Virus record (IMG/VR): IMGVR_UViG_3300047562_001282
Coordinates: 1-24,916 of that record
DNA from: a virus
DNA: 24,916 nt
Direction: 5' to 3' (one strand)
The number at the start of each line of letters is the position of its first letter. Position 1 is the first letter of the stretch. The notes under the pieces are model-generated. The model did not search any database. It saw only the letters and a program-made list of their open reading frames with translations, and was not told the DNA's origin. Positions 1 to 24,916 of this stretch are shown here, piece by piece. A program made the translations under genes and the position numbers.

Positions 1-2563
1 TAGAGCATGGTCTAATAGAAATTCCATGATTGGAAATCTATTGCCTGGTGATCAAATTAAAATTGATGGAGAATCTGATTATAGAACTATCACATCTATC
101 CCTAGATTTGCCTTCACCAAATCATACAATAATGGTGATTATGTTCAGAATAGCATGTATGCTAAAGCAGGAACAACCAACTACGAAGGTGGAACTGATG
201 GGGTTGGATTGAGTGTTACTGCCAATGTAAACCAGTATGGCGAGATAACCACCCTTAGTGTTTCTGATATTGAATTTAACAAGAGAGATCTTCAGTTATT
301 CTTCGATGAAGGTATTTTATTACAACCAACTGCTTATGGTTATTTTACAACACCAGTTGTTCACTTTATTCCTGTTGATGGAAATGGAGGAGGAGCGAAA
401 GCAGAGGTCATAGCATATGGTGGACAAATATTAGATGTTGTTCTAACTGATGGTGGTAGTGGATACACTCAACCACCTAAAGTTGTTGTTGCCAGAAGAT
501 ATAAGAGAATTAAGCAATCTAATCGTAAAATTGATAGTTTATCAATTCTCAATATTCAAACAGATATCGCTTCATCGTTTGAGATGGTGGCATATTCAGT
601 TGTTAGAATTGAGGGAGGTCCTTTCAGTCCTCAAGCAATTTCTTCTATTATCACATTTGGTGGATTTGATCCAGAATTAAATACAGATAGAGACATTATT
701 ACTACCGTCAATACTTTAGCGGGAGAAGAACGTCAAGTCAGAATGACTGACAGAAAATTCCCAACTGAAGCACGAGTACAATCTCCTACTGTAGAATTAC
801 AGTATGTACAACCATTCGTAGAACCTTACATTACTACTATTACTGGTGGTATTATTGGTACAGAATCTATTGTCACACTTCAAAGTGCCGCTAGAGAAAT
901 TACCAAGATTGTCCAGATTAAAGCAAATAAAGCATTCAGACAAGAGAAAGCAGATTCTATTAACGGAGTTGGAACATTCTTGGATGCTCCAATGGATCTT
1001 GATGATACTATTGCTTACGTCGGAAACGCTACTGGATTCCCAGATACTCCAAGTAGACTACGTATTGGTAGGGAAGTTGTTTACTATAAGAATAGAGAAT
1101 CGGATAGATTCCTCAACTTGACCAGAGGATATGAAGGAAGTCCTATTGAAAATCATGCTCCAGGAGAACTAGTACTACATTATCCAGAATTCCTCACTTT
1201 ACTATCTGGCGGCATTGAAACAATTCTCAGTGAAGGAAGCGTTGCCCAATCTTCTATTACTTCGATAGAGCACACTACAACATTCGAATCATTCAGTGAA
1301 GTTAAATCTAACGATACCAGAAATATTGAATTAACAAATCAAGTATCAATAGAACATATCAATACTGTTCAGGATGTAATTGAAGAAATTATTATTATTC
1401 CTAGAGATTCTTACAATATTGTTACAGAAATCCACACAACTGTATCTCAAGTAAGAAAGGCAACTGCTGGTGTTAATGATGTAGATGGTTTTGTCGTTAT
1501 TGCCGATGTACGTAATTCCGAGGTTACCGAGTTACTTCTAACCCAAGAAAATCAGATTGAAATTGATAACACCAATGTTATTACATATCTCAGTATTGCT
1601 GATGTTTCTGCTACTGCTAGTGTTTCAACACAGATAGTAACAAGTAACTATGAAAGCACTGTAATTACCGTACAAAATCAGATTCAAGAAATTACTACAT
1701 TACTCGCTTATACATCAGAAATTATTAATGATGTTCAATCGAACATTTACAGTGCTTCAAATATTACTTCTGTCAAAATCAATACTGTAGATGCTTATGT
1801 TTCATCTAAAGTTAATATTTCTTCTTCTTCAGAAGATCTATTAAAACCAATATATTTACAAACGGAGGTAACCGCTACAGTAGCAGATATCAATACTTTT
1901 GCTACTACTGTAGCGATGATAATTGGAACTTTTGGTGCTGGTAGCTCTTCTTCCACAGAAAGAGATTATAGAAGTGCTGTAGTTGACTATATCATTGAAG
2001 ATTATGTATTAGAACCTACTATTAAACAACGTGGTGGTTTTGTTGTAATATTAGATGATCCATATAATGAAGTAATTTATCGTGATGGTTCTACTTTCTT
2101 TGTAGAAAATAACAATCAAAAGAGTCCTCCTGGATTTGAAGATTATACTCTCGGCAATGTTGGATTGACTTTAGGTTCTTTCGAATCAAATGCTTTAGTG
2201 GCAACTGGTGTCAATTCTGGATTAACTATCTACGATATAGATTTTCTATACCCAACGCTGGTCATTCGTGATTTTGATACTCGATCACAATCCGCTTTTA
2301 CCTCGACAGGAGATGTCTTCAACTTAGCAATACCATCTTATCAAACACCAGTTGCTATTAGTACTTCTTCTGGCACAATAGGCGGTCCAATTACAGTTCA
2401 AACAACAGAATATTTTAATAATTCTGGATATCTGATTACATCTGGAGGAACCGTGATTAGTTATACAAGCAAAACTTCTAATACATTCGAAGGATGTACG
2501 TTGGTCAATGGACCAGATTTAATCAGTCCTAATGATGAGCTCATTCCATTTACTATTGTATAA
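1..2563 (+). CDS. Large virion/baseplate protein, 5'-truncated by the window (positional counterpart of T4 gp7)
   Basis: The frame is open from base 2 and has no ribosome binding site before the first ATG (base 26), so that ATG is internal and the gene begins upstream; at least 853 residues are present. It lies directly before gp8, where T4 has gp7, and I infer a baseplate-wedge or wedge-attached role from position only; I see no residue-level match to T4 gp7. Visible parts: a Gly-rich beta module with GGSGYTQPPKVVV (nt 386-515), a beta module with LRIGREVVYY and a Tyr-Glu-Gly turn (nt 1016-1175), a long Ser/Thr/Ile/Val-rich middle (nt 1230-1960) with almost no Cys or Trp, and a C-terminal module (nt 2396-2560) with GTVISYTSKT, which looks like a second copy of the nt 1016 type. 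The TAA stop lies inside the tandem late promoter for gp8. Coding is certain; the function is not. Confidence 0.85.
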   Translation, partial: RAWSNRNSMIGNLLPGDQIKIDGESDYRTITSIPRFAFTKSYNNGDYVQNSMYAKAGTTNYEGGTDGVGLSVTANVNQYGEITTLSVSDIEFNKRDLQLFFDEGILLQPTAYGYFTTPVVHFIPVDGNGGGAKAEVIAYGGQILDVVLTDGGSGYTQPPKVVVARRYKRIKQSNRKIDSLSILNIQTDIASSFEMVAYSVVRIEGGPFSPQAISSIITFGGFDPELNTDRDIITTVNTLAGEERQVRMTDRKFPTEARVQSPTVELQYVQPFVEPYITTITGGIIGTESIVTLQSAAREITKIVQIKANKAFRQEKADSINGVGTFLDAPMDLDDTIAYVGNATGFPDTPSRLRIGREVVYYKNRESDRFLNLTRGYEGSPIENHAPGELVLHYPEFLTLLSGGIETILSEGSVAQSSITSIEHTTTFESFSEVKSNDTRNIELTNQVSIEHINTVQDVIEEIIIIPRDSYNIVTEIHTTVSQVRKATAGVNDVDGFVVIADVRNSEVTELLLTQENQIEIDNTNVITYLSIADVSATASVSTQIVTSNYESTVITVQNQIQEITTLLAYTSEIINDVQSNIYSASNITSVKINTVDAYVSSKVNISSSSEDLLKPIYLQTEVTATVADINTFATTVAMIIGTFGAGSSSSTERDYRSAVVDYIIEDYVLEPTIKQRGGFVVILDDPYNEVIYRDGSTFFVENNNQKSPPGFEDYTLGNVGLTLGSFESNALVATGVNSGLTIYDIDFLYPTLVIRDFDTRSQSAFTSTGDVFNLAIPSYQTPVAISTSSGTIGGPITVQTTEYFNNSGYLITSGGTVISYTSKTSNTFEGCTLVNGPDLISPNDELIPFTIV

Positions 2564-2572
2564 ATATAAATA
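2559..2572 (+). promoter_or_regulatory. Tandem overlapping T4-type late promoter boxes before gp8
   Basis: Two copies of the exact T4 late box TATAAATA overlap by two bases (2559-2566 and 2565-2572), giving TATAAATATAAATA. They lie over the stop codon of the upstream gene and 37-43 bases before the gp8 start. In T4 this box is read by gp55 sigma with gp33 and the sliding clamp; use here is inferred from sequence and position. A good ribosome binding site, AAGAGAG at 2595-2601, lies seven bases before the gp8 ATG. Confidence 0.7.
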
Positions 2573-2608: not shown

Positions 2609-4450
2609 ATGACTGCTATTATCTCAGACAAGTTTAGGATTTTTAATGCTAAGCAGTTCCTTGAGTCGCTGTCTGAAGGTACTTCGGACACTGGCACGGA
2701 ACGTACAAGAATGTATTTCTTTGTTGGCCGCCCCCAGCGTTGGGATGCCTACATTGAAATCTATAACCAAAATGCCACATCTTTCGTAGCTGGCAATGAA
2801 GTTTATGTTGGAACCAACTATGCTTCAGCCACATTTAAAGGTGTAATTAGAGAAGTTCACGAGAATTCTTTACTCCTTTATAGCATTGGTCCTGCTACAA
2901 ATTCATCCCCCGCTATCGGTTCTCTACTGAAAGGTTGGAATGGTACTGCTGACACTGGTGCTGAAGCACTATCTGGTGTATATCGTTACGCTACTGAAGA
3001 TGTACCGCCAACTCCACTAGACAACCAAACAGAAAAGTATGATGTCTATGACGACATCATTGCTGCCAAAAGAATTACATCGGACTTTGCTCGTGCCGTA
3101 ATTCGTCGTTATAACTGGGATCCCACAAACAATGTCTATGACATGTGGAAACCAGATTACTCATCGACTCCTGGTAACGGTGGTCAAATCGGTAAAGCAG
3201 CCGCTTCTGGCGCCACTAGCATTAGTACTGCCAGATTCTATCTAATTAACTCTCAGTACGAAGTATTCAAGTGCCTTTACAATGGAAATGGTGCTGGTGC
3301 TACTAATGAACCAAAAACTACTCCATCTGCTGGACAGGGTTCATACTCTTCAGGAATTTTCACCGAAGATAATGCTGCTCCTGGTCAGTATATTTGGAAG
3401 TACATGTACACCATCCCAACCGATGACGTACTCCGTTTCCTTTCAACAGACTTCATGCCAATCGTAGCTGCTGGCGAAGCAACACGTGTTGCTACCGAAG
3501 CTGCTGCTGTTGATGGTGCTATTGATGTTCTCCTAGTAGAGAATGCTGGCGCTAACCTTCCAAATGGCACACACTATGCTCCAATTCTAGGTGATGGCAC
3601 TGGTGGTAGAGCACAAATTGTAGTCACTGGTGGTTCAATTTCTTCTGCTACCGTTTCAAACAAAGGTTCTGGTTATACTTACGCTTCTGTTGCTCTAGAA
3701 AATGGCGCTACTGTTGCTGGCGCTCCTTACGGTCTATACTCAGATGCTGGTCTAACAACTGCTGTTACTACTGTAGGACCAACTGCCGTTGGCGCCATCG
3801 AGGTAGTAATTCCTCCTCAGGGTGGTCATGGTTCAAACTTCGAAGAAGAGCTTAACGCTAAGCGTGTTATGACGAATATTCGTCTAACTTATGCTGAAGG
3901 TGCTGGCGATTTCCCTGTTGATAACGACTTCCGTAGAATCGGTATTATCAAAGATCCATATGCTTATGGAACTACTACTTTTGCCACAACTTCAACTTTA
4001 AGTGGCGTGTATGCTGCTAGAATTAGTGGTGCTACCGCTGACTATCAAGTTGATGAGACCATCTCACAAACTACTGCTAATGGCGGTACTGCTTATGGAA
4101 CAGTAGTTTCATGGCAAAGAGATGATGGAAATGCTGGTCCTGGCGGAATTGGCGTCCTTAAGTGGATCCAAACTCCATCAGCACATACAGATTCTGGCGT
4201 AGTAAGAGCTTTCGAGTCTACTGCTAACAAAATTAATGGTGCTTCTTCTGGAGCAGAAGGAGATGTAATCCTCACTGGTCCAGAGTCTACAGCTTCTCTC
4301 GGTGGTCTACAATTTGGTGCTACTGATCCTGGTCTCGCTGAACCAGAAATTGAAAACAACTCTGGTGATTTAATTTACGTCGAGAACAGAAGACTGATTA
4401 CTCGTGCTGCTGACCAGATTGAAGATATCAAACTGGTTATCGAGTTCTGA
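2609..4450 (+). CDS. 8: Baseplate wedge subunit, T4 gp8-like, enlarged
   Basis: T4 gp8 is a dimeric wedge protein that binds gp10/gp7 and gp6 in the baseplate. The match is seen block by block: an N-terminal SDKFR block followed by MYFFVGRPQRW (T4: FITFGRSEPW), AVIRRYNW (T4: AVIPRRDW), then YIWKYMYTIP (T4: YVWEYLFEIP), FRRIGIIKDP (T4: FRQISIITNP), and the C-terminal GDLIYVENR...ADQIEDIKLVIEF (T4: GEMIYMENR...MDQTEEINILFTF). T4 gp8 has 334 residues; this has 613. The extra length lies in three places: about residues 55-125, a Gly-rich GSGY module at 303-365, and about 452-580, which includes a YQVDETISQ beta segment. The start is supported by AAGAGAG seven bases upstream and by the tandem late promoter. 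Spot counts suggest a higher GC content than its neighbours. I am confident of the family. Confidence 0.93.
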   Translation: MTAIISDKFRIFNAKQFLESLSEGTSDTGTERTRMYFFVGRPQRWDAYIEIYNQNATSFVAGNEVYVGTNYASATFKGVIREVHENSLLLYSIGPATNSSPAIGSLLKGWNGTADTGAEALSGVYRYATEDVPPTPLDNQTEKYDVYDDIIAAKRITSDFARAVIRRYNWDPTNNVYDMWKPDYSSTPGNGGQIGKAAASGATSISTARFYLINSQYEVFKCLYNGNGAGATNEPKTTPSAGQGSYSSGIFTEDNAAPGQYIWKYMYTIPTDDVLRFLSTDFMPIVAAGEATRVATEAAAVDGAIDVLLVENAGANLPNGTHYAPILGDGTGGRAQIVVTGGSISSATVSNKGSGYTYASVALENGATVAGAPYGLYSDAGLTTAVTTVGPTAVGAIEVVIPPQGGHGSNFEEELNAKRVMTNIRLTYAEGAGDFPVDNDFRRIGIIKDPYAYGTTTFATTSTLSGVYAARISGATADYQVDETISQTTANGGTAYGTVVSWQRDDGNAGPGGIGVLKWIQTPSAHTDSGVVRAFESTANKINGASSGAEGDVILTGPESTASLGGLQFGATDPGLAEPEIENNSGDLIYVENRRLITRAADQIEDIKLVIEF

Positions 4451-4505: not shown

Positions 4506-4508
4506 AAC

Positions 4509-7500
4509 ATGCCACAGAAGACTAATCTTAATGTAGCACCTTATTATGATGATTTCGATGCTAATAAGAACTTTTATAAGGTTCTTTTTAGACCTGGATA
4601 TTCGATTCAAACTAGAGAATTAACTTCTCTACAATCGATTCTTCAGAATCAAATTGAAAATTATGGTAGGTTTAATTTTAAACAGGGACAGCAAGTAATC
4701 CCTGGAGAAGTTGGACTAAACACCAAATTAGATTATGTCAAATTGTCTTCTGTATCCGAAGTTGCTGTTAGTGAAAACGGTCAAGTTGTCTACAAAAAGT
4801 ACGATATTAAGCAACTAGTGAACACTCAACTCCAGGGATTAAACTCTGGAGTTGTTGCACGCGTGGTAGGAGCAGAATATGGTTCCGAGATAGAAGCAGA
4901 TACTCTATTCGTAAAGTATACAACTAGCGGAGATTCTAATAACGAATCTACTTTTAGACAAGGCGAAACACTAGAAGTAATTAATGGTATTAATACTCCT
5001 CTATTAGTTGTCGGTACAGACGGTAGTGTTTTACCAACAAGCATTAATGTTACAGATCCTATTAGCGGAGAAGTAGAAACCTTCCAAAGTCCAGCAATGG
5101 GATTCTCCACAGCGGTTGATGTACAAGAAGGTGTTTATTTTGTAAATGGATACTTTGTTAGAAATAGCAAACAATTACTTATTGTAGACAAGTATTTTAA
5201 TAGAGCTTCGGCAAAAGTAGGGTTTACAATCTCCGAAAAAATTGTAACTCCAGAAGAAGATTCGTCTCTTTATGATAATGCTAGAGGATTTTCAAATTCT
5301 TCTGCTCCTGGAGCACATCGTTTACAGATTTCTTTGGATATTAAAGCATTTGACTATAATGCTAATACAGATAAGAACTTTATTCAACTTTTACAGATTA
5401 ACAAAGGTGTTGTAGAAAAGCAAGTAAAATCTGCTGACTACACTTTACTAGAGGAAACTCTTGCCAGAAGAACATATGATGAATCTGGAGACTATGTAGT
5501 TGATGATTTTACATTTGATATTCGTGAATACTATCAAAGAAATGGCAATAATGGTGTTTTTGCTTTAGATAACGCTACTGGTTTAGTTAACGAAATTTCT
5601 CCTGTTACAGCAGAAGGAAAAATGCTTCTTGGCGTAAGTCCTGGTAAAGCATATGTAAAGGGTTTTGAAATTGTTAACAAAGAAACTAAGAGTTTAGAAG
5701 TTGATAAAGGAAGAGATACATTATCACGTGACAATGTTACTATCAAATCTAGAGGACTACCAGAATTTAAAATTACTAACGTTTATGGAACTGTCCCTCT
5801 AAACACAGTTGGAGATTCTTTAACTGGATACCCCACAATTACATTTAATAGTGTTTTCAATGATGGTACGATTGGATTTTCTGGACTACAAGATTCTACT
5901 TATTTTAGAACTACAATTGATAGAAGATCTGAGGTATTCGATTTAAAAGATGGCATCAAGACTATCTACGTACAGGTTATTGGCACAATTCCAGCAGAGA
6001 CATCACAACTTCCAAATGAAGTCTGGTTTGTCAATACCAGAGGATCAGGAACAGTTTCTGGTAGAAGTGCTAGAGTTATTGGAAAGGCAATTGTAAATAG
6101 ACCAGAAGTTAACTCGGCAAATGATGCTGTATTTGCTGAACTAACATTGCTTGGAGATAAAAGAGTCTTGGATCAAAGACTCACCGAATATGATACTGGA
6201 GAAGCAGATTTTAGAAGATATGTTTACACGTCACAGTCATCGTTAGAAGCATCAACTTCACCATACGGTTTTATCGTTGACTACAACGAAACTATTTCTC
6301 CAGTTGTTGGCGTAGCAAAACCAAAGAACATTAGACTTGTTAACAGAGGTAGTGGTTTTAATCAAGATACTGATATTGTTCTTTCTAGAGGTAGAACTGG
6401 ATCTAGTGAACCATATAATGCTACATTTGGATTCACGTATTTTAATCCAGTATTTTTCACCAGACTAAAACTAGAAAGACCTTTAGAAGCTGGTAGTTTC
6501 CAAACAGGTCAGTATATTGTTGGTAAAGAAAGTAAAGCATATGGTGTTGTCGAGAATGACACTACAGAAAACTTCAGTGGCAACTCTACTTTATTTGTAA
6601 CTACTCTTTCTGGACAGTTTATCCCTGGAGAAACAATTATCGATGAATCTGATAATGCTATTAAAATTGCTAGGGAAGGAACTATTTCCCACTTTGTTGT
6701 AAATCGTCGTGGTAGTAGCTACGTCGAAGCATCAAACTTAGTAATTAATGGAACTGAGTACGATCAATCAAAGATTGGAATTACCTATTATGGAGGAGCT
6801 GTTGCTATTGTTAGAATTGAAAATAGAGCAGCACTTCAAACTGTATACGCCAAACCACCAGAAGTTACATTCTCTGTTCAACCATCTAGTCTTTCTAACT
6901 ATGCTGTAGTAACACCAGTATTGTTTAAAGATACTGTTCTTACATTTTCTCCCCAAAATGTAAAATCATTCTCTTCAACTTTCAACAATTATAATTTTAC
7001 TGCTGATGTAGACTTTAGTACAACTTCTTATGCTACTTACACTCAAGTAAGTGAATTCACTTTCTTTGGATATAACGGCAGGAAGTACGTTGAGTGTAAT
7101 GGATTTGGTGCTGATTTATCAGGAAGTCTTGTACAAGGAGATATTATTCAGTTTACTGATGAAAATAACAATGTAATTAAAAACGTTGTTCAGCAAGTTA
7201 CTTCACCTGAAGGCATTGACAAGTCACGAATTTACTTAGAATATGCTTTACCAGCAAACGTAACTAATGCCGCTGTTATTAGACTAAGACCTCGTATTGA
7301 TAACTCAACAGGAACATTAGTATTTCCAACTGGTAGCAAGCAAGTTGCTTCACTGGTTGCTGATTCTACAGATACCAAATTTAAGTATTATGCTAGAAAA
7401 GACTTTGTAACTGAACTATCTTCCAGTGGAGGTAACATTACGTTTACAGCACAGTTACCAGTTGGAACTCAAAAGTTTGTTGATTTTACAGAAGAAAATT

Positions 7501-10500
7501 TCCTTGTTACTGTTCTAAGTAAAGGATCTTCCACAGTTGTCGATGATGGTGATGTTGTTTACATCGATCCTAGATATATTGAAGTAGAAGAATCAACTGT
7601 TACTGCTGGAGAAGTTGCTTCTGGTGCTCTTAGAATTAAGAATTTACCATCAGATTATTTCGGTACTATTGTTCCTGGTGGTACATATCCAACTCTTAAG
7701 CTAACAGCAACAATTCAAATTGAAAAAGCAAGACCAAGATTAAAGACTGCTATTAAGAATAAGAGAGTCATTGTTGTCTCTAGTGGAGATCGTGTAATTC
7801 CCCTAAGAGGTCAAGATTACGATTCTGAAACTATTGAAACATTTTCATATTCTGATGTTTATAATCTCAAGTATATTTACGAGGGTACTACCACTAGTCC
7901 ACCATCAGTAGATCCAGCTGGCAATCTTGTTAGCGGTACTGATGTAACGTACAAATTTACATTTGACGATGGACAAAGAGATACACATTATGATGTTTCT
8001 AGAATTATTCTAAAACCTGGATTTGATGCTCCTACTGGTCAATTAGTAATTGCTTTTGATTATTTCGAGCATTCAGTTGGAGATTTCTGTACGGTCGATT
8101 CTTATGTACACCAGGCAGGAGTTCCAGCAGAAGAAATTCCTCTATTTAATTCCGCTACAAATGGAATTATTTCTCTTAGAGATTCTATTGACTTCAGACC
8201 AAAGGTAGATGGCGATACTACGATTACTGGATTCCAGAACAAGTCAGTTGTTTCGGAATTTGATACTAGAGATTACATTACCTTTATCGGTACTGGTGGT
8301 ATTGCTACACTAACACCAGCAGCAGATCCAAACCTTCCATATACAGCATCATTCACTGAAAAGCAATACTTAGACAGAATTGATGGTGTTTTCTTAACTA
8401 AAAAGGGTGATTTTATTATTAAGGAAGGCAATTCTTCATTAAACCCAACCAAACCAGAAGCAGTCGATGATGCCGTTGCTCTAGCATATTTACACATTCC
8501 TGCTTACACTAAGAGCAGCAAAGATGTGAGGGTTGTCCCTGTTGATAACAAGAGATATACTATGAGAGACATTGGTAAGCTGGAGAAGCGTATCGAACGT
8601 CTTGAATACTATACTACCTTAAGCATTCTTGAGCAGCAAGCATTAAACATGCAAGTTAAGGATGAAGTAGGTCTAGAAAGATTTAAGTCTGGTTTCTTCG
8701 TTGATAATTTTGAAACTCACAAAGCAGGTAATCTTAAGTCTATTGATTATCTATGTGCTATTGACACCCAGCAATCGGTTCTCCGTCCACCTTCAAAAGA
8801 AGATAGTTTTGTATTGAAGGAAATTAATACTAGAAACGATCAACGAGAAGTAGCAGGATATGTCATTAATGATGGCGTTGTCACACTTCCATTCCGTTCC
8901 GTGGAATTACTAGGAAATAGCAACGCTACCAAAACTATTAATCCAAATCCGTTTGTAGTTATTCAGTATGTTGGAGAATCGGTAATTATTCCACAGCAAG
9001 ATTCTTGGTATGATCAAAGTGTAGAACCACTAGTAGTAGATTCAAATACTAAATTAAATTCTATCTTCCTGGCAAAAGATGATGTTGCTGATGCTTACTC
9101 AAGCATTTATAACTCATTTGTTGTTAACTGGGTAGGCACAAATCAATCATTCTTACCTATCGAATCTTTTGCCAATATCAACAGCGAAGATATTGTATCA
9201 ACTATTAATACTGCTTCGGTAGCAAGTTCTTCTAATGTAAGTCCACAGAACAATGAAGTTGGTAAAGGTATTAATACAAGATCTATTAATGGAAATATTG
9301 TAGCGACCTCTCTACAATTCTTTGCCAGATCTATTCCTGTCAAATTTGTAGTTAATCGTCTAAAGCCAAACACCAGAGTATATCTCTTCATGGAAGGCAA
9401 GAATGTTAACCGCTGGGTCGTCCCTGACAGCAGATTTACTGGTGTAGCAGGCAACTCATCATCGGCGTTTGGATCGCCTCTTATAACCGATTCTAACGGC
9501 AATCTGAGTGGCATTTTACTAGTACCAGCTGGTTTACCACCAGTATCTAATACAAGATGGACAGGTAACGTAGATACAGTTCTTTATGATGAAGCTGGAG
9601 AAGAAATCAGATTAACAACTGGCATCAAAACTATTCGTTTTACTTCAAGTTCTGATAACGCTAATACAGCAGAAGTAGATTCTTATGCCGAGGTTAAGTT
9701 TTATGCTTCTGGTATTTTACCAGAAAATCCAGGATCTATTACATCAACCGCTGCTGCTTTCTTCAAAGCAAACGAAGGTGTTCAGTTAGTAGATAGCAAC
9801 ACTGATAATCCAATCAAACCAAATCCACTAGCACAATCATTCAGAATTGAAAACTTTGATGGTGGCGTAATGGTAACGGGAGTTGATTTGTTCTTTGCTT
9901 CTAAGAGCCAAAACATTCCTATTAGAGCATATTTAACGAACGTAGAAACTGGTAAGCCAGGTAAATTCATTATTCCTGGAACACAGGTTTCATTAACTCC
10001 AGAAACATATCTTAAAGTTTATGTAACTGGAGACAGTGAAACTATTACAATTTACAAAAACGAGTATGTAACTGGAAGAACATCTAACGCTAGAGGACCA
10101 ATTGCTAAAGTCTTTGATGGCAATAACATTAGAGTTGGAGATGATTCAAGTACATTCTTCGAATTAAACAAAGAGCAAGTATATACTCTCGTTCTCGGTA
10201 ATCACAACGGAACAAGTTTCCAACAAAATGAATCAATAACTATCCCTTCTATTACTAGCTACAACGCCAGAAATAACACAACTGTAGGTATGTTTATTGC
10301 CAGAGATGCTGGAAAAATTGTAGATTTAAGAGTTACCAACGTAGGCGACAATTACGAGAGTGCTTCTATTACTATCGAAAGTCCCCAACTTCCTGGTGGT
10401 TCTGCCGCTACTGGTGTTATTGGAGTTTCTGATGGAAAGATTTTTAGTGCCGAAGTTGCTCTAAGTGGTCGTGGATATACCGAAGCGCCTTCTGTTGTAA

Positions 10501-15700: not shown

Positions 15701-17876
15701 TACTAGTTTAAATTTTTCAGGAGTTCCATATGAAGATGGAGTGACTATTGATGGTCCCAGTACGCTGCTAAAAATTACAGATTCGACTCCATCTACATTA
15801 TATTACTATTGTCAAAACCACGAAGATATGGGAGGTTCTGATGGTCAAGAAGGTGTAATCACCATCTCATCAAACAATCCAAGAGTTTTTGGATCTGGGT
15901 TTACATTAGCTGTTAGTGATATTGAATCAGTAGATTCAGTATCTATGGATATTGATACTGGAAAAGTAACAGCAGATTCTATTGAAGGTCAAACTGCCAA
16001 TTTTGCTTCTGGTATTGTTTCTGGAAATTGGGAGGCATCTGGTTTGAGATGTTCGACGATTTCCACTAATGTAATTACATCCACAACTGGTGTTACGGTA
16101 AGTTCAGCAACTATCAACTTAGCAGGAACCACTTCAATCGGATCTACAATTTCATTAGCGCCATCTACTGGTAACATCACAACTTCTGGAGTTTTAAAGA
16201 CTACTAATACCTTAAACGTAAATGATAAGATTAAAATTATCGATAACGTAATTGAAACTACCAGTGGCAATGATCTACTATTAAAACCATTTTTTGGTAG
16301 ACTAGCCAAAGTAGATTCTGTTGGGGCATTTGTTATTCCGTCTGGTAATAATGATCAAAGACCAGGAAGTACCCTTAGACAAAATGGAGCTATTCGTTTC
16401 AATACTGATACACAACAGTATGAAGGGTATAGTGAATCTACGTCATCGTGGTCTTCTTTGGGTGGAGTAAGAGATATTGATGGGAATACTTATATTACAG
16501 CAGAGCAAAGTGTTGGATCTAATGATAACAGATTATGGTTTTATAACGATGGTTTAAATACCGTTAGATTTACTAAACAGTACCTGGAATTTATGGGTGC
16601 TAAAAGAATCAGATCTTTAAATACTTCTGCTCCAGCATATGTAGATTGGCAGGCACAAACTCCAGTAACTTCTGGAACATATTTAAAGTATCTTTCTGGG
16701 GTTTATGAAGTTGTAGCAGCGGGCACAACTGCTAGTGTAGGCAATGAACCCACTGATACTTCTGGAAACAATTTTTTGAATGGAACAGCTACATTACGTT
16801 ATAATACTACAGCAATTTCTTCTTTGGTTTTTGAAGAAATTTCGGATATTCGTATAGATCCAGTAGTAAAATCATCTACACTAACAGTTAACGCCGAACT
16901 TAGATTTTCTAAAAATACTATTTCATCATTAACAGATGATCTTGTTATTCAACCATTTACAGAAAAAAAAGTTGTTGTTAACACTACATCTTCTTTAGTT
17001 ATTCCTGTTGGCGACAATAATCAAAAAGGATCTCCAAGCACAGGTTCTATCAGATATAATACATCCAATCTAGCGTTCGAAGGATATGATGGTGTTAACT
17101 GGGGGTCTCTGGGTGGAGTTAAAGACGTAGATCAAAACACTTATATTATTCCAGAAACTGCTCCAGGACAAAATGAGAATATTTTATATTTCTACAATGA
17201 CAACAATAACACACTAAGATTAACTACCACTCAATTAGAATTTGATACAGTTGATACCATTGTATCTTCAGATACAGATACTTTAAATATTAATGTATCC
17301 ACAGTAACCTTAGATAATCTAGCTACAACTATTGATAATACTGATGTAAATACTACCTTTATTTCATCATCGAAAACTAATTTTGATTTTGGTCTTTCTT
17401 CTGGACTAACAAATGATCATCTACTAAGACTCACTAATGCTGGAAGTGTAATATTTAATCTCGGATATGGTACAGGAACTGATAATAACCTCACTGTATT
17501 AAATTCAACTTTAACCAATTTTGAATTAGCTAAGCTTAGAGTCAGAACAACATCTTTATCTTTAGTAAGAGGAACAAGCAATACTGGAAACTTTACTGTA
17601 TATACCCCATCCATCGAAGCATCTGCTAAGTTATTCCTCACTGCTCACAATTTAACCACTGGTGATAAGGAAACTGTCGAATACTCTGTAATAGATAAGG
17701 GATCAGATGTAATATTTACAGATTATAATAATATAAAAACTGGAGCAGAATTAATTTCTGCTGTATTTGATATCGATCCATCAAATAATGTTCGAATGAC
17801 AGTTACGGCAAATAGTGCTCTAGCTACGGGAAATCAAATATCGATTACTTTGGTAAGACACATCACAAAGAGGTAA
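12774..17876 (+). CDS. Tail-fibre-like protein (1700 aa) with beta repeats and cupredoxin-like domains
   Basis: The N-terminus, INVARTDTFEVQRQKINQIG followed by LKLGDGT and LGIYKPDTSTLGF, is of the type seen in large fibre-like proteins of T4-like cyanophages and probably anchors it to the tail. Order of parts: three 38-residue Gly-rich repeats plus a partial fourth (118-243); a degenerate cupredoxin-like domain (248-352); GSGY-type beta modules (about 355-475, 560-605, 740-800); three copies of a 'ttITVSdttGI..GM.V' beta module (about 497-556, 660-727, 917-982); an intact cupredoxin-like domain (about 845-1031) with ligands H897, C1013, H1016 and M1019; a Ser/Thr-rich beta segment; and two copies of a shaft module with IRF/YNT...EGY...W.SLGGV.D.D.NTYI (1152-1280, 1376-1497). 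It ends RHITKR. Host contact is inferred; no receptor domain is recognised. The ribosome binding site is weak. DNA is notably AT-rich. Confidence 0.85.
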   Translation: MPAINVARTDTFEVQRQKINQIGAQIFSISQGGSDLSTGLLKLGDGTQTDPSLSFTTDSTLGIYKPDTSTLGFVVNGKKVYDYSLSGVNFYNDVVLEKKSLFDEGILISANGQNYDLGTYEDVPLTGGTGSGATATIEVAEYTGAITNVGSDYFDGSYSNIPLLGGSGTGALASFDVSGITGTVLNSGLNYVPGSYINVPLQGGTGSGALADISIVGTSSFTGSISSGGSGYTNGTYQTVPLLNIPIQTFSVTLVGGVYAIDGVSQQTISLEKGNTYRFDLSDSSLSTEFFNLRNTSNQALPALFFSITRFGSDGESGAFLQVVVKDEAPVQSVRYVSQINGLIGGTVNIISGTPGQGGSGATATLVVSGGVVTSVINESYGSGYEANDTLEIYSGNVGGTGSGFEYTVDSLEYTGQVDQITIVDPGNNYSQFDELSIDDSDVGGGGGSGFLYVITEENPNTFSNFQITDKGSGYQLGNVLGLASTTANFTTTFGFEASFVISSASSVNVGDRVIVVSGPGQLPSGTTVTNADTVTNTITVSDAPSITGNATVRFIPPYGGNGNFAYSINSFGSVESVSITNGGNGYEVGDVLSADSVNLSSSIEYIVTSEDFSLVTFSGSYPSSTFSVGDILNNKGGLVNAVSIAQSSTLPPTVVNKPSVTVTAGSSVLTMTSTSGIVASMFVSQNNIGGGTIDDAVTVVSVDSSTQITISKVGLISGTADLDFTSNESATYTPVASTSPFSDGSGATFTVVRASDGSVISVTPVNGGFNYLQNDGLTISGTLVGGSSPADDIELTVSSISGEIVDMEVFAVNSTNGNLDSILITRNTTLNNISGNAIPSNILVKQGTEYTISSTDHTQMRFLIDTGSGPQLTPDLTLYLNDTYAFNTEDSSMSGHVLKFSRFPDGPNSPSNLSRTTNLLVQSTTITVSDTTGILEGMSVTTVSGDGSVAIGTIVSEVVDSTTLVLSRLPIVSGTTSLNFSGVPYEDGVTIDGPSTLLKITDSTPSTLYYYCQNHEDMGGSDGQEGVITISSNNPRVFGSGFTLAVSDIESVDSVSMDIDTGKVTADSIEGQTANFASGIVSGNWEASGLRCSTISTNVITSTTGVTVSSATINLAGTTSIGSTISLAPSTGNITTSGVLKTTNTLNVNDKIKIIDNVIETTSGNDLLLKPFFGRLAKVDSVGAFVIPSGNNDQRPGSTLRQNGAIRFNTDTQQYEGYSESTSSWSSLGGVRDIDGNTYITAEQSVGSNDNRLWFYNDGLNTVRFTKQYLEFMGAKRIRSLNTSAPAYVDWQAQTPVTSGTYLKYLSGVYEVVAAGTTASVGNEPTDTSGNNFLNGTATLRYNTTAISSLVFEEISDIRIDPVVKSSTLTVNAELRFSKNTISSLTDDLVIQPFTEKKVVVNTTSSLVIPVGDNNQKGSPSTGSIRYNTSNLAFEGYDGVNWGSLGGVKDVDQNTYIIPETAPGQNENILYFYNDNNNTLRLTTTQLEFDTVDTIVSSDTDTLNINVSTVTLDNLATTIDNTDVNTTFISSSKTNFDFGLSSGLTNDHLLRLTNAGSVIFNLGYGTGTDNNLTVLNSTLTNFELAKLRVRTTSLSLVRGTSNTGNFTVYTPSIEASAKLFLTAHNLTTGDKETVEYSVIDKGSDVIFTDYNNIKTGAELISAVFDIDPSNNVRMTVTANSALATGNQISITLVRHITKR
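13125..13502 (+). repeat. Tandem 38-residue beta repeats in the first fibre
   Basis: GTYEDVPLTGGTGSGATATI (residue 118), GSYSNIPLLGGSGTGALASF (156) and GSYINVPLQGGTGSGALADI (194) repeat at exactly 38 residues, and a partial fourth, GTYQTVPLL, starts at 235. The pattern of turn, strand, GGxGxGA turn and strand suggests a stacked beta shaft. Confidence 0.85.
13515..13829 (+). other. Degenerate cupredoxin-like domain, all four copper ligands lost
   Basis: Residues 248-352 of the first fibre align with the intact domain further on: NTYRFDLSDSSLSTEFF matches DTYAFNTEDSSMSGHVL, and VRYVSQINGLIGG matches LYYYCQNHEDMGG without a gap. The ligands become H to E289, C to S338, H to N341 and M to I344. 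It should therefore be a structural, metal-free copy. The fold assignment is by motif only. Confidence 0.6.
15306..15866 (+). other. Cupredoxin-like domain with complete type-1 copper ligand set, split by an insertion
   Basis: Within the first fibre, YAFNTEDSSMSGHVLKFS supplies H897 and LYYYCQNHEDMGG supplies C1013, H1016 and M1019, the H...C-x2-H-x2-M arrangement expected of a type-1 (blue) copper centre. H897 and C1013 are 116 residues apart; the matching positions of the degenerate copy are 49 apart. The difference of 67 fits the inserted beta module at about 917-982. Copper binding is inferred, not shown. Confidence 0.6.
16227..17264 (+). repeat. Duplicated fibre-shaft module (two copies)
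   Basis: Copy 1 (16227-16613) and copy 2 (16899-17264) share, in order, LLLKPF/LVIQPF, FVIPSGNNDQ/LVIPVGDNNQ, a Pro-Gly-Ser segment, AIRFNT/SIRYNT, WSSLGGVRDIDGNTYI/WGSLGGVKDVDQNTYI, LWFYND/LYFYND and LEF. The copies have diverged at the DNA level, so the duplication is old. Between them lies an unrelated 95-residue segment. Confidence 0.85.
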
Positions 17877-18447: not shown

Positions 18448-21400
18448 ATGAGTTTTCAGTTAAATTCTGACAGGGAACAACTTGTAGGCGTTGATTCTAC
18501 TATCATCGGTACTAGTTCGGTTCGTATTAGATCAGGAGCTGGGGAAGATCAAAGAGAGATTTTCCAAGCAAAAATCGACAACACATCTGGATTACCTCGT
18601 GTTGGTATTAACAGAACTGGAAGGCGAGTAGATTCTATCACGGTAACATCTGCTGGATTGGGGTATACAGATACTCCAACTATCAATATCAGTGCTCCTA
18701 CTTTACCTGGAGGTATTCAAGCAGTTGCTTCAGCTGTAACAGATTCCAATGGAAGAATTATTTCAATTGGTATTGATAATCAAGGTGATGGTTATGAATT
18801 TCCACCAACAGTAACTATAACTGGCGGAAATGGATCTGGTGCTGCTGCTACATCCGCTTTAGATACTATTGATTTCGAATTGGATGTTAATGGTGCTATC
18901 AGAACATCAACATCGATTATTTCTGATACAGCAAATATTTTAAATCTTGATATTGATAATCTTGTTACTCCAGATGTCAAGTATCGAGCAGCAGATTTTA
19001 AAACTTGGGCAAACGGAACTGGTGTAAGATTTCCTTCTTCACCAACACCAGTAAATAAAAATGATTATTTCTATGAAGGGTCCAATATTTACCAAGCATT
19101 AGATACTGGTATTACTGGACTAATACCACCTTTCCATGAAGATGGTATTGAATTAAATGGAGATGTTAGATTTAAACATATTGGATATAGAGTAAATTCT
19201 CCAGATCTTCCTTTCTTTGGCGAGAGTGGTGATTCTGGAATCTTCCCCCGTTCCATCACCCCTCTTCTCGGAGATAGATCGGATAAAGTTGCCACAACAG
19301 AATACGTTCTAAACTTAGCAACAAATGACGTTGGTGGACGTATCTATGTTTCTGAGCAAATTGGAGATGACGACAATGATGGTCGTTCACCAGTTAATCC
19401 AGTTAGAACAATTAAAAGAGCATGTCAGTTAGCATGGGAAACTCCTGGAGTTAAGGAGTCAATCATTATCGCTGGTGGTGAATATCTGGAAGATAACCCA
19501 ATTTCAATTCCACCAGATGCTTCTATTGTAGGCGATAACCTTCGTCTTGTAATTATCAGACCAGAAAATATTGGTAAACATATTTTTAAATTTGGTGATA
19601 AAAACTATGTTATTGGTGTAACTTATCAAGATAAAGTAAACTCATCAGGTGCTTCAGTTGGTACTTGGGACTTTGCTATGGTCTTTGACGATAAGCAAAG
19701 AATTATTTACGATAAAACTGCTAACGGAGATTTTGGAACCAATTTCACAATTGGTCACCAATTCTTTGGTCCAGATTCTTTCCAAGCACTATTTAGTTTT
19801 AACGATGCTGGATTAACGGCATTATCAGCTGGAATCACGATGTTTGGTGCTAACACTGGTACTACCGCCAGAGTTGGAACTGTAGAATTTGACATCAATG
19901 ATCCACAAAATCCAGATGCTTATAAAGAAGGTAGAATCACCGACTTAACTAGAGTCTCTGGTGCTGGTTTCCAAAACTCAGAAACTTTCTATTATGGCGG
20001 AACTGGCACGACTAAATGGGCGCCATCAACACAATACCAAATCGGAGACATTGTTTGGTCTGACGCTATATTACCAGGAGGTGCTTTAGTTGCTTATGTT
20101 TACACTGTAACCACTGCTGGTATTTCTGGAACAGTTCAGCCTACACATACATTTGGTATTGAACCAAATGGAACAGCGGCATTTGAATACACAAGACAAG
20201 CATACTCTGTAAACTTATCTCAAATCGAATCCACTAGAGCTGAAGGAGAGGTAGTATTTACAGGGGATGAATATGAAACTGTAAATCCTTTACCAATCAC
20301 GAGAATTGATTTTAGTCTACAAGGAACATTTAATGATGGATTCCAAAATGATATCTACGGAGATTCTGAAGATCTTGGTGGTATTGTATTCTATACAAAC
20401 CCATTAGAAGGTGCTAATAATATTCACGATTTTAAAGAAGGAGAAGAAATTGAAATTACTGGAATGCCATCAGCACCAGATGATCTTAGCTTCTTAAACG
20501 GTAAACATAGAATTTACAAAGTTATAGAAGATGCCGATGGTCGTGCTAGAAGATTTGTACTTCCAAAGAAACTTGATCCAGCATTAAATTTAAATGAAAT
20601 TGATGACTGGGATCCAGATTCTGTTGGAGCAGTTGTTAGTGTAAAAACTTATTCAAAATCTGTAACACTATCGTTACTAAACTCACCAAATAAGTTTCCT
20701 GTAGCTCAGCCTGTAGCAAGAAGATATCAAGATGCTTGCTTATTAATCAGAAATAATATTAATTATATTGCTGATGAAGTTGTTCGTAAAATTAACGACC
20801 AATTCAAAAAAGAATACTTTTCAGTATATGAAATCAGTGGAAATACTTTCAAAATCTATCTAGGAACTTCCAGATTTGCTCACAATTACGTAAATGGAGG
20901 AACAGTAAGATTTAACAACACTAACTATAGCATTACCAATTTCGAATATGATCATGATGGAACTGGTGAGGCGACTATTACCACAGCAACAAATGCTGGA
21001 CTATCTGAAGATGATACTGTAAAGCTATCTGGTATAGTAGTATCTTGCATCATCGATGGTGTAGTAACCGAGAAAACTTACCCAAGTTTCAACATTCCTG
21101 TTAGTGATCAAAAGTGTCGTAGAGATATTGGTCACTTCTTAAATGCTATTATTCAGGACTTAGAATTTGGCAGCAACTATAACACAATTAACGCTGCCAG
21201 AAAATATTTTGCTGCTGGTCAAGTTGAATACGTAGATTATGAAATTATCCAAACTGTTCGTGCTATTGAGTATGCTAGAGAACTAGCAATTTATGCTATG
21301 AGGAAGTGGCGTACTGGAAACGGTACGCCAGTAGATCCAGTATATGTTTCACAATACACAAGTTTAGATCAATATGTAGATCCAACTGTTATTGATGATC

Positions 21401-24400
21401 CAGCATCGCCTGCTTGTGCTAATGTAGCAAGTGCTATTAATACATTATCATATCTGTTTGTAGATATTATTTCCAATCAGGCTTCAGGAACTTATCTCGA
21501 TGGTGCCTATTTGATTGCTAGAAACAGAGATTTTATTGCTGATGAGGCATATCAATTAACCAAACAGCAATATCCTTCATTAGGATTAGATGATGTTGAT
21601 GAGAGAAAGTGCCGTAGAGATATTAATTACATCTTAAGCGGCGTTCTTAGAGACTTAGTTCTTGGCGGAAATGCTGGTTCCGTAAATGCCGCTGAGTTTT
21701 ATTTCCAAGGTACAACTTTAACTGGCGTCCCAGCTTCCGAACTTGGTGCTACTAGATTTGCTTTTACTAAGGTAAGAGATCTATCTATTTTAGCAATGAG
21801 GAATTGGTATCAAAGTGGTGGCGCTGGATCCCAATATACGCCACTATATTCTATTATTCCTCAGTTTACCGATAATACAATCCTCGTAGATCCAGCTGGA
21901 ACTCCTTGGTGTGCTGATGTCGAGGCATCGCTAACAACTTCATTCGAATTAATCGATGGCATTCTAGAATTTGCTGATGATAATACAAGTCCAACTGCTA
22001 TTCAGCCAGGATCAACAGTAAGAACAACAGGTACTCTTTATTCTGGAGATAATGTAATTTCATATCCAGATAACGTTCTTAGAGATGTTAACAATAACTT
22101 TGTAACTATTCGTGCTGTATATGACGATCTTCCAATTATTTCAGCATCTCCATACACACAAAATGCTTCAATTATTTCGAAACTTGGTGGTAGTGGTGCT
22201 CTGATTGATGGATCAAAAGTTAAAAATCCAAACTGCCCTTTCCCTGGTTTATCTGATGGCAGAGCAACATTTCCCAACCAGGGCAAGTCGATGGTTGCCT
22301 CGGCATTTACTATTGTTTCTGAGCAAAATGGTATTGGATATAAGATTATTGAAGATGGTTATGTACAGTTAGTTTCTGTATTCTGTATTTTCTGTGTTGA
22401 TGGCATTCTTGCTGAGTCTGGTGGATATGCCTCGGTTACCAACTCTGCCTCAAACTTTGGTACATACGCTTTAAGATCAAGAGGTTACAGACGAGAACCA
22501 TATGAGTTTGATTCTGGATACACAGCAACTGAAGGTTATCAACGTGCCTTTATTGATGTTGTCTCCGAAAGTATTACTCAGTTTACAGAATTTACTATTG
22601 ATAATATTGGAAGAATTCCTCTTGAGCATTATATTGTTAAGGTTGATGGATACGAATCTGCTGATCTTGATGACGAATACTTTATTGATAAAGTTGAAGT
22701 TCTCAGGGAAGGTCCTCCATATAGAGCAAGAATTACTGTAACAAGCGGTTCTGGAGCGGGTGTTATTCAACTTAGAAATAAATCGACGGGATTGTTAGCT
22801 TCTCCTGCAGAATTAACCAGCAAAAATATTGCATTACACAGACCATCCATCGTTAACTCATCTTCCCACACATGGGAATTTGTTGGATCTGGAGTTGATT
22901 ACAATGCTCTACCAGAAAACGGCGGACTTAAAATAGATAGCAATGAGCAAGTGTCGGAAGATTATGGTAGAACATATGTATCTGGTACTGACGAACTTGG
23001 TGACTTTAAGGTTGGTACGTTTGCTAAAATTGAAAACAGAACTGGCAACATTACCTTTACTGGTACAGTTTCGATTTCAGAAGTTGAGTTCCTCAAACTA
23101 AGGGGTGGTGATGTAGTTGTTACTGGATTTGACAACTCAAATACTCTCGGTGGTGCTCTATCATCTGACTCTAAATTACCGACACAAAAAGCGGTTAGAG
23201 ATTATATCATTAATAATTTGGGTCAGTATCTGAATAAAAACTATTCAACAAACCCTGTCCCAAGAGCTCTAGTAGAATTAACAGATGAGGGTAAAATTTC
23301 TGAAAGTCAATTGCCAGCTAGCAGTCCAATTGAAGTTTATAGCGTTGATACAGAGCAAGAAAGATTATCTTTAGAAGGTGTTAATGCTGGTGACATTGTA
23401 ATTGAATCTGGTGCTGCTTATATTTTAAACACAGATTCAGACTCTCTGTTCTTGGGTATTAATGTAGATTCTTCACTACAGTTTACTGTAAATGATATCT
23501 TCACAGGTAGCACCACTAATGGCAAAATTCAGTTAACTGAGTACAGACCTGGGGTTATTAAAACAATTACTGTCACGGATCCTGGATCTGGTTATTCAAC
23601 ATCAAATCCACCTACTGTAGTAATTAATGATAATGGTACACAAATAGGACACGTTCCAGCAGTAGCAAGAGCAATAGTTGCTGGGGGAGAAATTGTTGCT
23701 ATCGAACTAGTTCTTTCTGATAGCTACATCGGAGGTAAAGGATATTTAGGTACTCCAACAATTTCATTTACAAACACTAGCGGAGGAGCTGGAGCAACTG
23801 CCACAGTTTCTTTAGAAAGTAGACTCTATGGAGATATCGTTAATAATATTAAAATAGAAGCGATTGATACTATCCAATCAAGTGATGTCCCAGCAGAAAC
23901 TGTTGATGTTATTAGAGTAGTTAATACTTCTGGAAGTAATCCAAATAATTGGGTTTCTCTTAATACTCAAGCAGTTCAAGCTAATGCCATTGAGGGTGTT
24001 ATTGGAACAGGAAACCTCGCTGAAAATGCTACTCTAGAAGCAAACTCAAATACTGTTCTTTATGGAGATTCTTCCTACAAGAAAGTTGTAAAATCTTTCC
24101 GTGGAACCGAGACTAGATACTTCATCAAAACAGCAGAAGCAAGTGGTGCCGATTATCTAGTATTCGAATCAACTTCTAATAATCAAACTGGATTATTGTT
24201 GGAAGGACATTCGGTAACTAATGTCACTGGGGTACAAGCAGGAACCACAATCACCCAGATTGCCACGTTTACTGTTGGACAAACAACTTACAAAAGAGTT
24301 ACATTAAGTGATGGTCTAACTAGTTCTGTACCTGTAGGTACTGTTGTAGAATTTATTAGACCAGCATCGCCAGTTTTAATTGAATCCAATTTAAGAACTT

Positions 24401-24916
24401 CTGGAGCAATTGAGTCTGTTCAAATTGAAAATGGAGGATCTGGGTTTGCTGCCGATGAAGGCGGTAATTTCACATATTCCAATGTTGCTATTTCGGGTGG
24501 AGGAGGAACAGGATTAGAATTAACTATTACAGTTGCTGACGGAGTAGTAACTAATGTTGTTGTTGCTAATTCTGGTAAAAATTACCCCTCAGATTTTACT
24601 ATATCTCCACCAACAGAGATTGGAACTGGTGGTTCTGGATTAATCCTTAGAGCAAAACGTGCTCAAGTTGATAAGCAAGAAGGTGATATCGGTATTGATA
24701 TTGCTAGAGCAACATCAGATACTTTATCAGATGAAGAGTATGGTACGGTTGGTGTAGTAAGACTAAGAAAATCCCAGTTTGATGTTGGCCCAAATGGATC
24801 GGTAAGATTGTATACTGGGATTGATTCTGGTCTAGATGCCGATTTGTTAGATGGTAACCAAAGTGGATATTATAGAAATGCTGATAATATTAATCAAGGT
24901 AGATTAAAACCAGCAT
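18448..24916 (+). CDS. Very large tail-fibre-like protein, 3'-truncated by the window (at least 2156 aa)
   Basis: I translated the frame from the ATG at 18448 to the window end with no stop, so the gene continues beyond it. N-terminus: MSFQLNSDREQLVGVDSTII, then FQAKIDNTSGLPRVGINRTG, an anchor type seen in cyanophage fibres. Two GSGY-type beta modules follow (62-137), then KVATTEYVLNLA (279-290). Residues 306-325, GDDDNDGRSPVNPVRTIKRA, with IIIAGGEYLEDNPISIPPDA after them, look like the start of a DUF1565-type right-handed beta-helix. A duplicated helical Cys-containing module with KCRRDI spans 758-1173. KLPTQKAVRDYI (1576-1587) is a common phage-fibre motif. More GSGY modules lie at 1703-1790 and 1986-2070, and the visible end has a LLDG..SGYYRNADNIN motif, usual before fibre tips. 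The receptor-binding end is therefore outside the window. A host-contact role is inferred from the family type; sugar-degrading activity is not claimed. Confidence 0.87.
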   Translation, partial: MSFQLNSDREQLVGVDSTIIGTSSVRIRSGAGEDQREIFQAKIDNTSGLPRVGINRTGRRVDSITVTSAGLGYTDTPTINISAPTLPGGIQAVASAVTDSNGRIISIGIDNQGDGYEFPPTVTITGGNGSGAAATSALDTIDFELDVNGAIRTSTSIISDTANILNLDIDNLVTPDVKYRAADFKTWANGTGVRFPSSPTPVNKNDYFYEGSNIYQALDTGITGLIPPFHEDGIELNGDVRFKHIGYRVNSPDLPFFGESGDSGIFPRSITPLLGDRSDKVATTEYVLNLATNDVGGRIYVSEQIGDDDNDGRSPVNPVRTIKRACQLAWETPGVKESIIIAGGEYLEDNPISIPPDASIVGDNLRLVIIRPENIGKHIFKFGDKNYVIGVTYQDKVNSSGASVGTWDFAMVFDDKQRIIYDKTANGDFGTNFTIGHQFFGPDSFQALFSFNDAGLTALSAGITMFGANTGTTARVGTVEFDINDPQNPDAYKEGRITDLTRVSGAGFQNSETFYYGGTGTTKWAPSTQYQIGDIVWSDAILPGGALVAYVYTVTTAGISGTVQPTHTFGIEPNGTAAFEYTRQAYSVNLSQIESTRAEGEVVFTGDEYETVNPLPITRIDFSLQGTFNDGFQNDIYGDSEDLGGIVFYTNPLEGANNIHDFKEGEEIEITGMPSAPDDLSFLNGKHRIYKVIEDADGRARRFVLPKKLDPALNLNEIDDWDPDSVGAVVSVKTYSKSVTLSLLNSPNKFPVAQPVARRYQDACLLIRNNINYIADEVVRKINDQFKKEYFSVYEISGNTFKIYLGTSRFAHNYVNGGTVRFNNTNYSITNFEYDHDGTGEATITTATNAGLSEDDTVKLSGIVVSCIIDGVVTEKTYPSFNIPVSDQKCRRDIGHFLNAIIQDLEFGSNYNTINAARKYFAAGQVEYVDYEIIQTVRAIEYARELAIYAMRKWRTGNGTPVDPVYVSQYTSLDQYVDPTVIDDPASPACANVASAINTLSYLFVDIISNQASGTYLDGAYLIARNRDFIADEAYQLTKQQYPSLGLDDVDERKCRRDINYILSGVLRDLVLGGNAGSVNAAEFYFQGTTLTGVPASELGATRFAFTKVRDLSILAMRNWYQSGGAGSQYTPLYSIIPQFTDNTILVDPAGTPWCADVEASLTTSFELIDGILEFADDNTSPTAIQPGSTVRTTGTLYSGDNVISYPDNVLRDVNNNFVTIRAVYDDLPIISASPYTQNASIISKLGGSGALIDGSKVKNPNCPFPGLSDGRATFPNQGKSMVASAFTIVSEQNGIGYKIIEDGYVQLVSVFCIFCVDGILAESGGYASVTNSASNFGTYALRSRGYRREPYEFDSGYTATEGYQRAFIDVVSESITQFTEFTIDNIGRIPLEHYIVKVDGYESADLDDEYFIDKVEVLREGPPYRARITVTSGSGAGVIQLRNKSTGLLASPAELTSKNIALHRPSIVNSSSHTWEFVGSGVDYNALPENGGLKIDSNEQVSEDYGRTYVSGTDELGDFKVGTFAKIENRTGNITFTGTVSISEVEFLKLRGGDVVVTGFDNSNTLGGALSSDSKLPTQKAVRDYIINNLGQYLNKNYSTNPVPRALVELTDEGKISESQLPASSPIEVYSVDTEQERLSLEGVNAGDIVIESGAAYILNTDSDSLFLGINVDSSLQFTVNDIFTGSTTNGKIQLTEYRPGVIKTITVTDPGSGYSTSNPPTVVINDNGTQIGHVPAVARAIVAGGEIVAIELVLSDSYIGGKGYLGTPTISFTNTSGGAGATATVSLESRLYGDIVNNIKIEAIDTIQSSDVPAETVDVIRVVNTSGSNPNNWVSLNTQAVQANAIEGVIGTGNLAENATLEANSNTVLYGDSSYKKVVKSFRGTETRYFIKTAEASGADYLVFESTSNNQTGLLLEGHSVTNVTGVQAGTTITQIATFTVGQTTYKRVTLSDGLTSSVPVGTVVEFIRPASPVLIESNLRTSGAIESVQIENGGSGFAADEGGNFTYSNVAISGGGGTGLELTITVADGVVTNVVVANSGKNYPSDFTISPPTEIGTGGSGLILRAKRAQVDKQEGDIGIDIARATSDTLSDEEYGTVGVVRLRKSQFDVGPNGSVRLYTGIDSGLDADLLDGNQSGYYRNADNINQGRLKPA
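20719..21957 (+). repeat. Duplicated helical module with conserved cysteines in the second fibre
   Basis: Copy 1 has NNINYIADEVVRKI (from residue 769), KCRRDIGHFLNAIIQDLEFG (889-908) and SPACANVASAINTLSYLF (from 987). Copy 2 has NRDFIADEAYQL (from 1026), KCRRDINYILSGVLRDLVLG (1054-1073) and TPWCADVEASLTTSFELI (from 1152). The KCRRDI and second-Cys positions repeat at exactly 165 residues (C890/C1055, C990/C1155), while the IADE helices are 256 apart because copy 1 carries an extra beta-rich stretch of about 91 residues. Confidence 0.8.

Follow-up and report, generated by a model that had tools for sequence, protein, structure and literature searches.

Studies of what decoration domains do on phage virions have dealt mostly with Ig-like domains and carbohydrate-binding modules (CBMs). 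Ig-like accessory domains (Big_1, Big_2 and FN3; Fraser et al. 2006, as cited in PMC9230969 and PMC8718954) protrude from tail tubes, and their loss costs lambda 100-fold in activity but is harmless elsewhere (PMC8718954); they are suspected of making weak contacts with the cell surface. In 936 phages, CBMs sit on the neck, major tail and Dit proteins (PMC6669499), and host binding has been demonstrated for two of these modules. The BACON repeats of crAss-like phages (PF13004; PMC6949934) form tandem arrays in one tail-associated gene, with a separate clade for each position of the array, and domain I of T4 gp18 is a protruding six-stranded beta-barrel (PMC3004832). Here we describe a further family of decoration domains, found in a marine-type phage contig.

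Like Ig-like domains, the module described here is a small beta domain of unrelated virion proteins and is often optional. Unlike them, it is composed of two tandem GxGY units with a 3+3-strand fold, and its copies in lambda-like tail tubes are internal inserts, whereas the Ig-like domains of lambda, T5 and YSD1 are C-terminal. With the CBMs of 936 phages it has in common that one kind of decoration domain is reused across the proteins of one virion; in contrast to these, it is known from sequence and models, matches no CBM family and occurs in many phage groups as well as in bacterial proteins. It is common to phages and bacteria, as BACON repeats are, but occupies five different genes in this phage instead of one. 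The T4 gp18 domain offers a comparison, being a beta-barrel insert of a virion protein that protrudes at the surface, and gp18 ranks second in a Foldseek search with the domain model (prob 0.82, TMq 0.46, E 0.74); this E-value is not significant, and no sequence similarity between the module and gp18 was found.

Searches of Pfam with the window proteins, the consensus and natural copies returned no family above cut-off. Membership in the Ig/Big/FN3 families was rejected on this basis for both consensus and natural copies (best Ig-type match Big_4, 14.6 bits against a cut-off of 22.1), as was membership in a CBM family (no Pfam match) and in BACON (no PF13004 match in Pfam searches of the window and of carriers). 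NCBIfam and PDB sequence searches revealed no named family, and a literature search by motif (GSGYT) gave nothing relevant, its coverage being thin for subscription journals so that an earlier description is possible. The preliminary description of this DNA had called the system under-described, which agrees with the missing Pfam family and the lack of a paper found by motif. As a kind, the promiscuous decoration domain is already known; the family itself appears to be unnamed in the libraries searched. By analogy, it is best read as working like phage Ig-like domains or CBMs while belonging to a different family.

The stretch analysed, referred to as the window, is the IMG/VR virus contig IMGVR_UViG_3300047562_001282 with a length of 24,916 bases. 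It is filled by six long ORFs (gene A, gp8, the DUF4815 protein, fibre 1, a small structural protein and fibre 2), and the gene order is identical in the Kyanoviridae S-H9-2, S-PM2 and Syn1. Judged from the gp8 family match and this gene order, the window stems from a T4-like cyanophage. The genes to which we refer are the following.

2-2563, + strand: gene A, C-terminal part of a giant structural protein, 5' end open
2609-4450, + strand: gp8, match to the T4 gp8 family
4509-12587, + strand: DUF4815 protein, large structural ORF
12587-12787: ORF of 66 aa between the DUF4815 and fibre 1 genes
12774-17876, + strand: fibre 1, large structural ORF
18448-24915, + strand: fibre 2, 3' end open

The C-terminus of the window gp8 matches PF09215 (Pfam search, E 1.3e-8), PDB sequences are matched at E 1.4e-12, and Foldseek aligns the protein with 1n7z (E 7e-7, TMt 0.51). 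The gp8 that carries the module thus has the profile and the fold of a T4-type gp8 around it.

For detection of the module, a seed profile was built from 12 aligned window copies and searched against the ORFs of the window and of 14 relatives, yielding 86 domains at i-E<1e-3. The iterated profile, comprising 37 columns, finds 213 domains in 57 ORFs of the same set. Neither the seed profile nor the iterated one gave any match (0 and 0 for the latter) to reversed proteins or to proteins shuffled in 20-residue blocks. Profiles built with genes left out cross from gene to gene (under the letter labels of the genes, F-only finds A, C-only finds F and all-but-F finds F), again with zero control matches. 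The module is real and not an artefact of composition, and these results demonstrate homology of the copies. Conserved positions of the unit are Gly1, Gly12, Tyr15, Gly28 and Ala31 together with alternating hydrophobics; by residue type, conservation concerns Gly, Tyr, Ala, Pro and hydrophobics, a single aromatic being conserved, in the pattern order GxGY, PxVxI, GxGAxA. Judged from the alignment, the conserved columns are a fold signature and lack an obvious conserved ligand site.

In the window 15 firm units were found (gene A 1, gp8 1, DUF4815 protein 2, fibre 1 5, fibre 2 6). The proposal that all five large genes carry the module is borne out, each having units that match the one 37-column profile. 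The copies, with profile scores in bits, are as follows.

338-409, + strand: weak partner unit in gene A (aa 113-136), 7.0 bits, preceding the firm unit
422..496, + strand: unit in gene A (aa 141-165), 26.5 bits, i-E 1.1e-7
3515..3808, + strand: two-unit domain in gp8 (aa 303-400), from profile and AF2
3632-3724, + strand: profile match of the second gp8 unit, 23.9 bits
10311..10427, + strand: unit 1 of the DUF4815 pair (aa 1935-1973), 23.7 bits
10434..10538, + strand: unit 2 of the DUF4815 pair (aa 1976-2010), 26.9 bits
13083..13190, + strand: fibre 1 unit 1 (aa 104-139), opening a tandem array, 27.1 bits
13206..13304, + strand: fibre 1 unit 2 (aa 145-177), 25.0 bits
13320..13418, + strand: fibre 1 unit 3 (aa 183-215), 23.9 bits
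14019..14126, + strand: fibre 1 unit (aa 416-451), 22.0 bits
14490..14582, + strand: fibre 1 unit (aa 573-603), 17.0 bits
18625..18855, + strand: N-terminal two-unit domain of fibre 2 (aa 60-136), from profile and AF2; units 18625-18738 and 18751-18855, 33.1 and 37.9 bits
23551..23811, + strand: second pair of fibre 2; units 23551-23679 and 23710-23811, 28.4 and 17.6 bits
24403..24642, + strand: third pair of fibre 2; units 24403-24534 and 24541-24642, 25.7 and 14.0 bits

A further copy had been proposed in the DUF4815 gene at 6324..6443 (+ strand). We rejected it, as its 3.9 bits fall short of the 6.7 bits reached by reversed sequence, and GxGY is lacking from this position in relatives.

Most copies are paired, two diverged GxGY units together spanning ~75 aa, and according to the structure predictions this pair is the natural domain, a compact all-beta fold of 3+3 strands. 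An AF2 model of fibre 2 aa 45-154, computed from 28 sequences, reaches a mean pLDDT of 89 and a pTM of 0.73, with pLDDT values of 92-98 across the domain and three strands per unit. In gp8 aa 303-400, AF2 places the six strands (307-315, 320-328, 334-340, 343-351, 359-361 and 394-400) in the same order as in the fibre 2 domain, with a pLDDT of mostly 91-95 over aa 300-360 and 77-91 thereafter. The first gp8 unit scores just 2.4 bits by profile and its assignment rests on the structure model, because the sequence signal is barely visible. The module of 35-40 residues originally described therefore stands as a sequence unit but not as a fold unit, since the latter is the ~75-aa pair.

Among solved structures, Foldseek found nothing similar to the domain model at E<0.001. 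The best matches (E 0.7) are a chain of the Tuc2009 baseplate tripod and the T4 sheath protein gp18, while Ig folds (filamin, telokin) lie at E>1 and a family 3b CBM at E 1.4. Matches to the beta-barrels of EF-Tu/eIF2 and ATP synthase all have E>0.1; this model-based likeness suggests, as a lead, a pseudo-twofold six-stranded barrel. In predicted viral structures, 42 matches fall below E 1e-3, including P22-gp10-like, baseplate hub/lysozyme and Sylvanvirus proteins.

The domain is optional, with filled and empty sites between close homologues. In the tail tube of Pseudomonas phage PseuP_224 (241 aa), one pair lies between '..VGWSDG' and 'DFVLPPSRTWFVF', and the collinear tubes of D3 (173 aa) and HK022 (166 aa) are without it. 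Likewise, gp14 of S-H9-2 and S-CAM22 has one pair (two units), and P-SSM4 gp14 has the flanks without the module. The two-piece alignments of P-RSM1 and P-TIM40 with S-CAM22 gp14, covering 85% and 79%, are as expected if their sequences lack the module too. At the level of the alignments, these sites show that a whole self-contained domain can be gained or lost and is tolerated in many virion proteins. Two further gp14 genes deserve mention. In Bellamy (L014 30630-32081) gp14 has four units, that is two pairs, and reads as a doubled domain at the site empty in P-SSM4. S-MbCM25 gp14 (KF156339.1 93105-94562) has an extra insert, as its two-piece match extends over 1,458 nt although only 388 aa are aligned.

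The preliminary description had treated the module as confined to one phage, a scope that proved too narrow, since unrelated phages as well as bacterial and archaeal contigs carry it. Whole-record scans of 10 marine or Stenotrophomonas T4-like phages gave 4-28 matches each, and the same scan of T4 gave none. Annotated phage carriers include the gp5 hub/lysozyme, gp14 neck, gp8, sheath (the tail sheath in Stenotrophomonas phage Ps15) and fibres, and a baseplate component beside the tube cap is another. A pattern scan of bacterial and archaeal genomes, for which a consensus query was used on the contigs, returned 142 stretches, from which 80 loci in many phyla were kept; in each of the 80 the profile confirmed copies of the module, usually two and at most 22. 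Prophage virion carriers include a lambda-like tail tube, a P2-like sheath and an XM1-type minor capsid/cement protein, and cellular carriers include SusD, subtilase and C25 peptidase proteins, with one bacterial carrier having a lectin-type and one a laminin-G domain. In several carriers the module interrupts the host family: the tail tube profile 1-154 is stretched over residues 19-266 (module at 139-212), the minor head protein profile 1-161 over 17-258 (module at 95-158) and the SusD profile 126-297 over 375-629 (module at 455-525). These breadth figures come from profile searches; tblastn with the 76-aa consensus found 2 records only, because the BLAST low-complexity filter probably hides the module. 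The same domain is thus present in several non-homologous virion proteins, namely gp8, gp5, gp14, sheath, DUF4815 protein, fibres, tube and cement.

As the best explanation overall, we consider it probable that the ~75-aa pair is a promiscuous accessory domain, placed in loops, at ends and in arrays of virion proteins, which acts as a surface brick. Its fold would tolerate insertion, and numerous copies would be exposed on tail, neck and baseplate, where they may provide spacing and weak generic contacts with host surface glycans or neighbouring subunits. Surface exposure and contact function are what we infer here. In gp8, pN/pS is ~0.42 for the module and ~0.26 outside it, synonymous sites being nearly saturated; the module evolves more rapidly than the remaining gp8 and is still constrained, which fits a surface domain without pointing to a particular function.

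A more specific role would be that of a CBM whose binding of host glycans boosts adsorption, by analogy with the 936 phages. The location on tail, neck, baseplate and fibre coincides with CBM sites in these phages (PMC6669499), SusD, lectin-type and laminin-G proteins are found among the bacterial carriers, and there is a weak Foldseek likeness to the receptor-binding head/tripod of Tuc2009 (5e7t and 5e7f, E 0.7-1.4). However, this fold match is not significant, Pfam gives no match to a CBM family, and the conserved columns are structural with a single conserved aromatic, so that we regard a dedicated sugar-binding role as doubtful. Alternatively, the domain could be a structural brace or spacer, which stiffens tail, neck and fibres by extra subunit contacts and does not bind the host. 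In YSD1, a beta-sandwich inserted into the tail-tube protein contributes a large inter-subunit interface (PMC8718954), tube and cement proteins, for which contacts in assembly are important, are among the carriers, and gp8 is under purifying selection. Yet assembly can do without the module, because close homologues (the D3 and HK022 tubes, P-SSM4 gp14) lack it, and bacterial proteins not involved in tubes carry it as well. We hold a purely bracing role, too, to be rather unlikely, about on a par with the CBM role.

Turning to the history of the copies, neighbouring virion genes of different families do share one module, as had been noticed, since the profile crosses genes. For 14 of the 15 window units, however, the closest copy in other phages belongs to the corresponding gene and usually has the matching position, and the one exception (unit F 1986) is a near tie; best scores are ~70-144 to other phages and ~36-56 between different genes within one phage. 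In a tree of 150 units labelled by gene, 32 label changes are needed compared to a mean of 87.4 after shuffling. Single forks of this tree are weak owing to the few columns, and the argument for inheritance is made by three tests combined. At the DNA level, module-to-module BLASTN detected no similarity between window copies of different genes, and a search for tandem and direct repeats found no inter-gene repeats in the window. The gp8 module is present in all 10 aligned relatives' gp8, whose phages range from Synechococcus to Pelagibacter and Stenotrophomonas, and T4 gp8 lacks it in the alignment with these ten. Further correspondences are that the gene A unit has its closest copies in gene A of other phages, that the position of DUF4815 unit 1 is occupied in eight relatives, that the fibre 1 unit at aa 416-451 has a copy at the matching position in S-H9-2, and that the N-terminal domain region of fibre 2 is kept in 30 of the 30 viral-contig relatives found. 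The nearest-neighbour, tree and DNA tests show that the window copies are passed on gene by gene, and with the gp8 module of all ten relatives they appear to be old. The insertions into gp8, the DUF4815 protein, the fibres and the upstream protein would be ancient and followed by inheritance within each gene, with local tandem duplication in fibre 1 on top. Such duplication was seen only there, in the DNA repeat family D2 (3 x 60 nt, 60-72%) to which fibre 1 unit 1 belongs.

These data speak against the recent spread between genes that had been suggested, and copies lying closest to their orthologues, which the preliminary description itself had named as contrary evidence, are largely what is found. 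A cassette now spreading between the genes of this phage might be considered, given that neighbouring genes have the module in common and that some relatives show short cross-gene DNA matches of 20-82 nt (for instance 52 nt at 83% between gp8 and a gp7-like gene of S-CAM22), but with no such match in the window, units closest to the same gene elsewhere and tree labels clustering by gene, it is very improbable. What survives of the cassette idea is that the two-unit domain is gained or lost as a whole on longer time scales, as the filled and empty sites reveal; at the DNA level a cassette is disfavoured. Convergence, by which glycine-rich beta sequences would resemble each other through composition only, draws on the glycine-rich, low-complexity consensus but is scarcely credible in view of the zero matches in reversed and locally shuffled controls, the ordered GxGY, PxVxI and GxGAxA pattern in paired units, and the confident model with its 42 viral structure matches below E 1e-3.

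Returning to the two-unit accessory domain, it seems likely, though by no means assured, that this unnamed, duplication-built all-beta family is a widespread plug-in of tailed-phage virions that also occurs in bacteria and archaea, and a third promiscuous brick beside Ig-like domains and CBMs. If so, tail tube, sheath, neck, cement, baseplate and fibres are all decorated with it, in proteins of myo-, sipho- and podovirus type. The natural filled and empty pairs (the PseuP_224 and D3 tubes; S-CAM22 and P-SSM4 gp14) allow direct tests of what it does to adsorption and stability. Because the module is shared, unrelated proteins can look alike and fibres can be mislabelled as neck or baseplate; the fibre 2 homologue of ACG-2014h, for example, carries the annotation 'neck protein gp14', and the bare module matches 20 PHROG families. 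A curated profile for the module would correct such annotation. The PHROG module families include phrog_701, 19630, 460, 708, 5342, 2885, 438 and 4406, which are unrelated virion proteins.

Some observations on the window genes lie apart from the module. Gene A (2-2563) unites phrog_4406 and phrog_9689 within a single ORF; a single gene is also found at its place in Sf-FR1, S-RSM4, S-CAM1 and ACG-2014h, and a separate second gene in S-H9-2, S-PM2, Syn1 and S-RIM32, a difference that is a gene fusion or fission. In gp8, aa 51-125 (2759-2983) form an N-terminal insert of ~75 aa, which is missing from P-SSM4-type and T4 gp8 and gapped in ~45% of aligned gp8s. Fibre 1 contains at aa 1013-1019 (15810-15830) a cupredoxin-like Cys-x2-His-x2-Met signature, LYYYCQNHEDMGG, a possible copper-site domain on the virion. 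Orthologous fibres of Syn1, S-RIM32, S-RSM4 and Sf-FR1 share this signature, as do structural proteins of P-SSM4 and S-CAM22.
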